From: a virus | Length of the DNA: 62,138 bases | IMG/VR virus record: IMGVR_UViG_3300034418_010262 | Span: 1-62,138 of that record | Strand: one strand, 5' to 3' | Shown: piece after piece, positions 43,837 through 62,138 of the stretch | Layout: each line of letters begins with the position of its first letter | How positions within the stretch are numbered: the first letter of the stretch is position 1 | The notes under the pieces: generated by a model | The model's database searches: none | Told to the model about the DNA's origin: nothing | Seen by the model: only the letters and a program-made list of their open reading frames with translations | Translations under genes and position numbers: made by a program

Positions 43837-43919
43837 TGGTGCCCGTGGCCGGACTCGAACCGGCAAGCCTAAGCGACACATTTTAAGTGTGTTGAGTTTA
43901 CCAATTTCTCCACGCGGGC
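43837..43919 (-). tRNA. tRNA-Leu (anticodon UAA)
   Basis: Acceptor GCCCGCG pairs with CACGGGC, the anticodon arm is ACACA-CTTAAAA-TGTGT, the variable arm is long (leucine type), the T arm is GCCGG-TTCGAGT-CCGGC, and CCA is encoded. One acceptor mismatch. Confidence 0.9.
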
Positions 43920-43924
43920 TTTTC

Positions 43925-44000
43925 TGGTGCCCCCACACGGACTCGAACCGCGGACCTACTGATTACAAATCAGTTGCTCTACCAGCTGAGCTATAGGGGC
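43925..44000 (-). tRNA. tRNA-Thr (anticodon UGU)
   Basis: Full cloverleaf: acceptor GCCCCTA, D arm with AGCTCAGCTGGTAGAGC, anticodon arm CTGAT-TTGTAAT-region with TGT, T arm with GTTCGAGTC, CCA encoded. Confidence 0.92.
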
Positions 44001-44013
44001 ATTACTTATTTAT

Positions 44014-44091
44014 TGGCCTGCGCTGAGGGACTCGAACCCCCGACCTAGTGCTTAGAAGGCACTTGCTCTAATCCAGCTGAGCTAAGCGCAG
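44014..44091 (-). tRNA. tRNA-Arg (anticodon UCU)
   Basis: Acceptor CTGCGCT/AGCGCAG is perfect, anticodon arm AGTGC-CTTCTAA-GCACT, T arm with GTTCGAGTC, discriminator G, CCA encoded. Reads AGA, a codon the phage uses often. Confidence 0.92.
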
Positions 44092-59561: not shown

Positions 59562-59602
59562 CGGTTACATTGTTATGCCACATTGCAAAAGGAGGTCCCA
59601 CC

Positions 59603-59845
59603 ATGTGCAGTCCATTTGTACGTAAAGAAGCCAACCGAATGAATTGGATCGTTAAAGGTAAACTTATAGATCCATCCTGGTCCGACAGAGACGTCGAAGC
59701 TACCTATAATTCATACATAAAGCGATTATGGGGAAACAACGAAAACTATGTTCATGAAATTGGATTTGAACAAGCCTGGAAGGCTAGAGAAGCAGAACAA
59801 CTATCAAAAGAGTTAGAATCAGTCGCTGTCCTAGGATACGATTGA
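59603..59845 (+). CDS. small protein, unknown function
   Basis: 80 residues from ATG 59603, AAAGGAGGT site. MCSPFVRKEANRMNWIVKGK then helical, Trp-rich. No family recognised; expressed late by its promoter. Confidence 0.6.
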   Translation: MCSPFVRKEANRMNWIVKGKLIDPSWSDRDVEATYNSYIKRLWGNNENYVHEIGFEQAWKAREAEQLSKELESVAVLGYD

Positions 59846-60742: not shown

Positions 60743-61708
60743 ATGGAACTACTCACATTGTGGAGCCTTGTCGGCTTCCTGCTTGCTGCATATGCGGTTA
60801 TAGCGAACGATTCAGTGCAAACTCTCGGCACGTGGATGGCATCTAACAATGAGAGATTTAACTATAAAGTACTATGGGCAGCGGCTTCTGCTGTTCTTCT
60901 AGCAACACTCTGGTACGGTTGGAGTGTTAATGGTGGCGACATTAGTTATGGCCGTTTGAATAAGATCCCGTGGCAAGAAGTACAATGGTACCACGCCGCA
61001 GCACCAGCTATTCTTGTTGCTTTAACACGAATTGGTGTACCAGTTTCAACATCATTCTTAGTTCTATCAGTATTTGCTTCAACCTTTGTGTTGGAAAAAA
61101 TGTTGATGAAATCTATTATGGGTTATGGCGTAGCAGCCTTATTTGCTTACGCAGTATGGTTTGCCATTAATAAGTTTGCTCATAAATGGTTTGATGAAAC
61201 TCAGCCAGTAAGTGAAGATAATAAACGTTTTTGGCGGATTGCTCAGTGGGTTGCTACTGGCGGATTGTGGTGGACTTGGTTGTCACATGACATGGCAAAC
61301 ATTGCGGTATTCCTCCCGCGTCAAGTACCTGTAGATCTTATGATTTTGATCTCATTTGTATTTGTCGGTGGTTTGTTCTTTATGTTTAGAGAACGTGGTG
61401 GTAAGATCCAACAAATCGTTTTGGAAAAACATAACACAAGATATGTTCGTTCAGCTACGTTGATTGACTTATTCTATTGGTTGTGTTTATACTTCTTTAA
61501 AGAGCTAAACGATATTCCTATGAGTACAACTTGGGTATTCGTTGGTTTGCTAGCAGGTCGTGAACTTGCGATGGCTACATACTTTGGTAAGAAGAAAACA
61601 AAATCTGTATTTCCTCTTGTAGCGAAAGACTTTGGAAAGATGATGGTAGGACTTGGAGCTTCAGTTGCTCTTGTACTAATGGTACATTACATTATCAATC
61701 CAGTGTGA
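60743..61708 (+). CDS. PiT-like phosphate transporter
   Basis: 321 residues, about nine hydrophobic spans. The PiT signature AND appears in YAVIANDSVQTLGTWMAS, and RIGVPVSTSFLVLSVFAS resembles the G-x-PVST-x-T segment that follows in PHO4/PiT proteins. Only one such signature pair is present, where PiT proteins usually have two. Phosphate uptake for phage DNA synthesis is the natural reading. Short leader hairpin (GACGG/CCGTC), AAGGAG site. Confidence 0.72.
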   Translation: MELLTLWSLVGFLLAAYAVIANDSVQTLGTWMASNNERFNYKVLWAAASAVLLATLWYGWSVNGGDISYGRLNKIPWQEVQWYHAAAPAILVALTRIGVPVSTSFLVLSVFASTFVLEKMLMKSIMGYGVAALFAYAVWFAINKFAHKWFDETQPVSEDNKRFWRIAQWVATGGLWWTWLSHDMANIAVFLPRQVPVDLMILISFVFVGGLFFMFRERGGKIQQIVLEKHNTRYVRSATLIDLFYWLCLYFFKELNDIPMSTTWVFVGLLAGRELAMATYFGKKKTKSVFPLVAKDFGKMMVGLGASVALVLMVHYIINPV

Positions 61709-61743
61709 CATTTTTGTCAAGTAAAAAAATTTTACAGAAGGGG

Positions 61744-61772
61744 TTGACATTCAACTCCTTTTGTGTTATATA
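61744..61772 (+). promoter_or_regulatory. sigma70-type promoter of the tmRNA locus
   Basis: GGGTTGACA with TTGACA at 61744-61749, 17 bp, TATATA (61767-61772). Start point near 61779. Confidence 0.85.
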
Positions 61773-61778
61773 TAAAAA

Positions 61779-61840
61779 GTGGACGTTGAAACAAAATAAA
61801 GACGGATCGGACCGCGGGGCAGTACCGCGCACCTCCACCA
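61779..61840 (+). ncRNA. ssrA: tmRNA acceptor (3') piece, permuted gene order
   Basis: Contains the T arm CGCGG-GGCAGTA-CCGCG (61813-61829) and the acceptor strand CACCTCC with discriminator A and CCA (61830-61840). It precedes the tag-coding piece, the arrangement of two-piece alphaproteobacterial tmRNA, whose T loop is also non-canonical. The mature 5' end is not determined. Confidence 0.88.
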
Positions 61841-61858
61841 TAAACACATGAGGATATA

Positions 61859-62002
61859 ATGAATTGGGATTGGCACTGGATAAGTTGGTTTAAAGGAACA
61901 CCTTTTCAATGGGGTGAATTTAGATTTAATAGTGGCAATCCATATAAAAGTTATAGATTTGGACCATTACTTATTCGTGTGTTTATGATGGGGGCGAATT
62001 AG
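61859..62002 (+). CDS. 47-residue Trp-rich protein encoded in the tmRNA intervening segment
   Basis: ATG has GAGGA four bases upstream. MNWDWHWISWFKGTPFQWGE starts it, and it ends SYRFGPLLIRVFMMGAN. Five Trp, five Phe. The frame fills the 149-nt segment removed in tmRNA maturation (61841-61989) and reads 13 bases into the mature coding piece, its TAG lying in the tmRNA 5' region. Not recognised. Confidence 0.6.
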   Translation: MNWDWHWISWFKGTPFQWGEFRFNSGNPYKSYRFGPLLIRVFMMGAN

Positions 62003-62138
62003 GATCGACGGACGGAATAGTTGAGTGGAGTTCACCGTGTTGGCCTACGTTATTCAGCCAAAAACTACAAATGCAAATGATAATTTTGCACCTTCTGGTT
62101 TTGCTCTAGCAGCATAATTAAGGGGGTTGGTCACTTAC
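61990..62138 (+). ncRNA. ssrA: tmRNA coding (5') piece, partial at window end
   Basis: Starts GGGGGCGAATTAGGATCGACGG, like the 5' end of tmRNA. Its first seven bases pair with the acceptor strand at 61830-61836 except one C-A mismatch. The tag frame begins at GCA 62073 and ends at TAA 62117: ANDNFAPSGFALAA, with the usual AND start and ALAA end. The remaining pseudoknots run beyond the window. Confidence 0.9.

Follow-up and report, generated by a model that had tools for sequence, protein, structure and literature searches.

The tmRNA gene at the right end of the record of a marine-type phage is permuted and codes for a two-piece tmRNA, and its intervening sequence (IVS) very probably doubles as a small protein gene at a site used for cargo. 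The tmRNA itself belongs to a known family; for protein genes nested in the spacer, no report was identifiable among the literature matches listed. Our computational analysis identified the tmRNA, an ORF in its spacer, selection on the encoded protein, a site common to many protein families and a helix around the cargo. The initial annotation had recognised the tmRNA correctly; the spacer ORF was absent from it.

A permuted tmRNA gene at the end of a phage record

The window, i.e. the whole stretch of DNA analysed, is the complete virus record IMGVR_UViG_3300034418_010262 with 62,138 bases, and readable DNA stops at position 62138. In Rfam covariance searches, RF04321 (tmRNA_permuted) matched positions 61779–62117 with 111.5 bits (gathering threshold 47; model positions 1–213 of 213), and RF01849 (alpha_tmRNA), the model proposed for this search in the initial annotation, matched positions 61740–62138 with 88 bits (gathering threshold 50), its 3' side being lost at the record end. 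ARAGORN also called a permuted tmRNA and assigned it the tag ANDNFAPSGFALAA, a frame with hydrophobic C-terminal residues and a terminal AA. Moreover, the T loop GGCAGTA (61818–61824), the encoded CCA (61838–61840) and a G3-U70 pair (61992 with 61834) can be read from the sequence; G3-U70 is the alanine identity pair of tmRNA. By the sequence, Rfam and ARAGORN alike, the acceptor piece with the T arm and CCA lies upstream of the coding piece, i.e. the order is permuted. As established for this family, the IVS is expected to be missing from the mature two-piece tmRNA. The features of the locus, with their basis in brackets, are:

61744–61776, + strand: putative sigma70-like promoter, TTGACA at 61744–61749 and TATATA at 61767–61772 with a 17-nt spacer (sequence; score 10/12)
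61779–61840, + strand: acceptor (3' tRNA-like) piece with T arm and CCA (RF04321 alignment, ARAGORN 3' tRNA domain, sequence)
61839–61848, + strand: IVS end helix, 5' arm CATAAACACA, which begins with the CA of CCA (fold; pairs with 61978–61987)
61841–61989, + strand: IVS, 149 nt (ARAGORN domains)
61850–61853, + strand: Shine-Dalgarno (SD)-like GAGG, 5 nt ahead of the ATG (sequence; first three bases paired in the extended helix)
61859–62002, + strand: nested small protein gene, 47 aa, MNWDWHWISWFKGTPFQWGEFRFNSGNPYKSYRFGPLLIRVFMMGAN, with the stop codon TAG at 62000–62002 in the coding piece (ORF, 56 loci, dN/dS)
61978–61987, + strand: IVS end helix, 3' arm TGTGTTTATG, which at the same time supplies codons of the nested ORF (fold)
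61990–62138, + strand: coding (mRNA-like) piece, 5' part, beginning at G1 and ending with the record (alpha_tmRNA; complete in locus L322)
62073–62117, + strand: tag reading frame ANDNFAPSGFALAA and stop (ARAGORN)

The coding piece of L322 is identical to that of the window up to the record end, and part of its acceptor piece differs. L322 has a full-length alpha_tmRNA match (model positions 1–355 of 355, 108.2 bits). Because this locus with the same coding piece has a complete alpha_tmRNA, the missing 3' part of the window tmRNA is most simply a contig-edge effect. No match to the window tmRNA was found in named phages by BLASTN. Altogether, both covariance models, the ARAGORN call and the complete counterpart in L322 bear out the permuted two-piece tmRNA of the initial annotation.

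A strong promoter of the tmRNA's own had also been proposed. The candidate scores 10/12, and scores of at least 10 were found upstream of 110 of 158 phage tmRNAs among the matches listed vs 5.7% of random windows. However, the site at 61744 is not in the list of a consensus promoter scanner, which requires T as the last -10 base, and a 15-bp hairpin (61733–61765) overlaps the promoter; a promoter at this position is, in total, plausible. The hairpin is perhaps the terminator of the upstream gene.

The proposed phage origin is supported by T4-like neighbours, i.e. a DNA polymerase, topoisomerase II subunits, SbcC/SbcD-like proteins and a helicase; the best matches listed for the polymerase are cyanophages at ~45% identity. 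A 321-aa protein (60743–61708) adjoins the tmRNA, is hydrophobic by eye and has 592 related stretches in viral contigs; it had no PHROG or Pfam match, and TBLASTN against named phages was empty. Three tRNA genes (Leu-TAA, Thr-TGT, Arg-TCT) are clustered on the minus strand at 43837–44091. The alpha-type tmRNA suggests an alphaproteobacterial host, as the initial annotation had proposed; however, such a host is unproved, since the phage Melnitz, which also has an alpha-type tmRNA, infects a strain of the OM43 methylotrophs (PMC9004378). A gene for SmpB (PF01668) was found in 10 of 14 control genomes and in none of 22 records from related viruses, a set that does not include the window and may contain fragments; if the gene is truly missing there, host SmpB would have to serve.

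The IVS of the window carries a 47-codon gene

At its end, the nested ORF traverses the 3' arm of the spacer-closing helix with its last codons and then stops within the coding piece, at the UAG of GGGGGCGAAUUAG. A search with the family alignment identified 56 loci in viral contigs. The ORF was flanked by both tmRNA pieces in 35 of the 56 by a strict pattern and in 47 by a looser pattern, and also, by eye, in L343; in L359 and L362, the tmRNA is interrupted by the contig edge. In six of the 56 loci (L328, L340, L341, L349, L375 and L350), the ORF lies outside an intact tmRNA, and the first four of these have the ORF without a surrounding tmRNA.

Several of these loci have unusual arrangements. 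By eye, apparent scraps of a tmRNA edge lie beside the ORF copy in L328, L341 and L349, which are possibly traces of cassette movement. In L375, the ORF is shifted to directly upstream of a tmRNA, and in L350/L380, the cassette sits in a broken tmRNA, downstream of which lies an intact one. The spacers of L360, L361 and L004 are composite, i.e. the ORF cassette is followed by a second spacer-like element that starts with TAAGCACA.

Among 27 unique cores of the family, the median dN/dS was 0.146 (327 of 351 pairs, dS 0.05–3), and variable columns numbered 5, 11 and 25, of 38 each, at codon positions 1, 2 and 3, respectively. A random-placement test against the close relative L353, one of five relatives tested, was not significant (P 0.46). 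In an alignment of five sequences (A3), the cassette was near-constant while the promoter and the acceptor and coding pieces were divergent. The identity of the ORF correlated only weakly with that of the sequence following it (r = 0.22; 435 pairs from 30 entries, among them a few copies outside intact tmRNAs). Judged by these sequence comparisons, we conclude that the 47-aa ORF is under purifying selection and is carried in very different tmRNAs.

No member of the family turned up in 289 alphaproteobacterial genomes, in a search run without a positive control. For the window ORF, PHROGs had no match at E 0.01 and Pfam none at E 1, and TBLASTN against named phages gave one chance-level match (E = 7). 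The AlphaFold model has five strands and is of moderate confidence (pLDDT 72.7, compared with 45–63 for the four others); Foldseek found no significant match to it in the PDB (best E 2.3). Because of the moderate confidence of the model and the lack of a PDB match, we claim no function for the protein.

Long spacers of phage tmRNA genes are occupied by ORFs

To compare spacers of phage and bacterial permuted tmRNA genes, we took a phage sample from two pattern scans of viral contigs (at least 189 pattern hits, 167 with a recognisable acceptor piece, 160 unique) and a bacterial sample from one pattern scan (at least 118 hits, 111 with an acceptor piece, 109 unique, nearly all alphaproteobacteria by title). 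Both samples are from among the matches listed, and related sequences within them are not independent. The pattern used for selection demanded C72 and CCA, so that their presence is built in; U70 was kept in 157 of 160 phage tmRNAs and in 40 of 40 with a long IVS among the matches listed.

Among the matches listed, the median IVS length was 80 nt in the 160 phage genes vs 28 nt in the 109 bacterial genes, and the IVS was at least 100 nt long in 62 of 160 vs 1 of 109. A wider bacterial control gave a match in 270 of 289 genomes; two of those among the matches listed exceeded 300 nt (L473/G135 and L472/G126), and the longest frame in the 166-nt IVS of L473 has 3 codons. A further bacterial locus, L474 (277-nt match), has a 90-nt spacer with a 31-codon GTG frame.

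Among the matches listed, 39 of 40 phage IVSs of at least 138 nt had an ORF over at least 60% of their length, and shuffled sequences gave a mean of 7.0 and a maximum of 13 over 60 runs, with 11 on the antisense strand; SD-led ORFs numbered 23 vs 1.2 in shuffles. For all 62 phage IVSs of at least 100 nt in the same list, the count was 52 (shuffle mean 13.5, maximum 20; antisense 18), with 27 SD-led ORFs vs 1.7 in shuffles. The excess was weak for those of 100–137 nt among the matches listed (13 of 22 vs 6.5; shuffle maximum 10).

We then picked ORFs of at least 25 aa that cover at least 55% of an IVS of at least 95 nt, in a set of 73 IVSs made up of the listed sample plus the window, Melnitz, L039 and L023. 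Such an ORF was present in 58. Because the other 15 lack one and many phage IVSs are too short for one, the ORF is dispensable for the phage tmRNA. A strong SD motif preceded only 31 of the 58 picked ORFs. Their stops fall mainly at two sites, 4 nt before the IVS end (21 ORFs) and 10 nt into the coding piece (16 ORFs), both of which are supplied by the tmRNA itself; in total, 23 of the 58, including the window ORF, stop within the coding piece. Of 28 ARAGORN tags from phage genes with an IVS of at least 100 nt, 27 end in AA, the exception being L143. The tags of 79 phage genes included none found among those of 110 sampled bacterial genes, which is compatible with the phage-specific tag that the initial annotation had considered.

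Unrelated small genes share the spacer site

Ten families of IVS ORFs with at least two members, i.e. nine besides that of the window, were identified at the tmRNA spacer site among the matches listed. Median dN/dS was 0.09–0.36 in nine families, seven of which provided a single usable pair, and the tenth was saturated. The Pfam family DUF6356 scored above its cut-off of 24.4 in 3 of 19 scanned ORFs (L099, 43.3 bits; L118, 33.5 bits; L449, 46.2 bits), and apart from DUF6356, none of the 19 passed a Pfam cut-off. Ten other IVS ORFs had matches at E 0.025 or worse in PHROGs, and TBLASTN of one DUF6356 ORF against named phages gave no match. The cargo of L085 and L456 resembles a stand-alone ORF of the window (59570–59845), and the 120-aa cargo ORF of L131 resembles a Melnitz gene at 69065. 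A cluster of seven members is linked by the C-terminus that the tmRNA encodes; of these, only Melnitz and L396 were counted as a family.

These data bear on whether the spacer frame could be a functionless chance ORF in an ordinary phage two-piece tmRNA. Such tmRNAs are already known, three of the four named phages with a permuted tmRNA show no such ORF, and shuffled IVSs yield, with any start codon, ORFs over more than 60% of the IVS in a mean of 13.5 of 62. However, 39 of 40 long IVSs among the matches listed vs 7.0 expected, the dN/dS of 0.146 in the window family and of 0.09–0.36 across families, and the DUF6356 matches in 3 of 19 ORFs all argue against chance, which we regard as highly improbable.

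Some spacers hold other inserts. By eye, those of L003 and L191 contain much the same non-coding insert of ~90 nt in two different tmRNA genes; in the L003 locus, Rfam gave no match apart from tmRNA. T-arm-like motifs were seen by eye in the spacers of L115, L109, L096 and L168, and the L115 spacer looks like a degenerate tRNA-Thr with an anticodon-like TGT. We also considered that some non-coding IVSs are glutamine riboswitches and rejected this, as Rfam gave only tmRNA families in 11 loci and the riboswitch of Melnitz follows the tmRNA.

Alternatively, the cassette could be a selfish mobile element for which the spacer of the tmRNA gene is a harmless place to insert, with a protein that promotes the element's own spread. 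The presence of the same cassette and helix arms in divergent tmRNAs, the copies elsewhere with apparent tmRNA-edge scraps seen by eye (L328, L341 and L349) and the composite spacers of L004, L360 and L361 are in line with this idea. By contrast, no match to a recombinase or nuclease was above the cut-off for 19 ORFs in Pfam and 11 in PHROGs, the endonuclease VII match of L200 in PHROGs being only at chance level (E 0.17). Moreover, the cargoes are unrelated small proteins, two of which have stand-alone phage homologues; therefore, homologous exchange of spacers fits better than a mobile element, and we consider the latter unlikely.

The end helix belongs to the tmRNA

In the predicted fold, a 14-pair helix closes the spacer of the window, and its inner pairs take in the first three bases of GAGG. 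The precursor of the window folded better than shuffled sequences (z -3.9). For IVSs of at least 40 nt among the matches listed, the two native ends gave better pairing than exchanged ends did in 123 of 124 phage cases and 19 of 20 bacterial ones. Because the end helix is found in phage and bacterial IVSs alike, it is the tmRNA's own, with the cargo carried inside it.

The pairing of the ends in 123 of 124 phage IVSs among the matches listed and the z of -3.9 could also mean that the spacer matters as RNA, e.g. as a helix, processing signal or decoy, and that RNA structure accounts for the codon-like conservation. However, changes cluster at third codon positions, the site is common to different protein families, and bacteria, with IVSs that are mostly too short for a gene, have the helix just as often (19 of 20 IVSs of at least 40 nt). 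We consider this explanation highly improbable.

An isolated phage has a similar gene, and known systems differ

A permuted tmRNA above the cut-off was found in four of nine named phage records searched. Only one of these four, the isolated phage Melnitz (MZ577097), has such an IVS ORF; by eye, the IVS is short in HTVC008M and in Mosig, and the IVS of BUCT-ZZ01 has a short frame only. The Melnitz tmRNA gives a complete alpha-type match, and its IVS starts with TAAACACTTGGAGAAGTATATG and encodes MFKWLSKTRLVVITRDYFRERNRKADAKIPKYLSGTRSVYDGGELGSTGRNRKV from an SD-led start, the same frame being openable also from an upstream TTG. Thus, Melnitz is like the window in being a phage with a permuted alpha-type tmRNA and an SD-led IVS ORF, which was found here. 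A homologue of this ORF is present in L396, also in an IVS. The annotation of the Melnitz locus contains SsrA only, and the IVS ORF is unannotated. The available text of the Melnitz paper describes the tmRNA and a glutamine riboswitch, but not the spacer ORF (PMC9004378). In the Melnitz locus (L390), this riboswitch (1199–1247) follows alpha_tmRNA (774–1191), overlaps the 3' end of the annotated SsrA and lies upstream of a late-transcription coactivator gene; it may act on downstream genes rather than on the tmRNA.

From 18,146 phage genomes, 133 unique tmRNA structures have been reported, 53 of them two-piece (PMC9004378). Because it is published, a phage two-piece tmRNA is known biology and, alone, ordinary. 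The alphaproteobacterial permuted tmRNA shares with the window the order of the pieces, the T arm, CCA, G3-U70, a tag ending in AA and the IVS end helix; however, its IVS is short (median 28 nt, 1 of 109 at least 100 nt long among the matches listed) compared with the 149 nt of the window. Group I intron-containing tmRNA genes also have a protein gene in a part of the precursor that is absent from the mature RNA, but there a self-splicing intron in the T loop encodes a homing endonuclease (PMC11915505), whereas the site here is the spacer of a permuted gene, with small proteins that are unrelated. Consistently, the window has the permuted order, and Pfam gave nothing for its ORF at E values of 1 or below, which argues against a group I intron with an endonuclease. 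A tRNA-Ala gene in the IVS of one permuted tmRNA is likewise a nested gene; it is, however, an RNA gene in one nominally archaeal genome (PMC11915505), and that of the window is a protein gene. In its available text, the paper on a tmRNA database from 2025 places a tRNA gene and also a repetitive element inside permuted spacers, and endonuclease genes inside group I introns, and makes no mention of protein genes in permuted spacers (PMC11915505). Similarly, among the literature matches listed, which were mostly open-access and available in part (including PMC4131195 and PMC11590407), no report of protein genes in a permuted tmRNA spacer was identifiable.

Discussion

Beyond the computational observations above, expression from the precursor, processing, a coupling of translation to maturation and the function of the protein are matters on which we infer. 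In permuted tmRNA, RNase P acts at the GGGG end and 3' processing occurs at CCA. For the window, the precursor would be transcribed from the sigma70-like promoter, ribosomes would start at the SD just inside the IVS end helix to make a 47-residue phage protein, and host tRNA-processing enzymes would free the two tmRNA pieces. Most likely, one precursor would thereby be translated into the small protein and also give rise to both pieces. Such nesting would let the tmRNA promoter drive the small gene with little additional DNA. For the picked ORFs that stop in the coding piece, cleavage at the IVS end would leave a stop-less mRNA, i.e. a tmRNA substrate, as described for arfA (PMC10107115). Related phages have unrelated small genes or non-coding inserts at the same place, and the same cassette is found in different tmRNA bodies; in this reading, the IVS is a cargo site.

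More tentatively, and by analogy, the nested gene and the tmRNA might form a switch in which translation delays maturation and the product is tagged after cleavage, a reading that we consider rather doubtful. Ribosomes reading the ORF would run through the 3' arm of the helix closing the spacer, and translation would therefore delay tmRNA maturation. Since a cut of the precursor before GGGG would remove the stop of 23 of the 58 ORFs, including that of the window, the tmRNA would tag their product. Tagging of this kind would resemble the negative feedback on arfA. If the switch is true, full-length protein would signal unprocessed or overloaded tmRNA.

Whether or not such a switch exists, the preferred reading, i.e. 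a tmRNA gene with a small protein gene in its IVS, makes the spacer a recurrent home of small phage protein genes, a sequenced isolate included. Annotation hides the spacer ORF because the span is marked as tmRNA. To our knowledge, the spacer of two-piece tmRNA is usually regarded as a by-product of processing. The spacers yield a catalogue of small phage proteins that are unstudied and have a tie to ribosome rescue. They also provide a transcript for which a double role, as mRNA and as the precursor of another RNA, can be tested directly.
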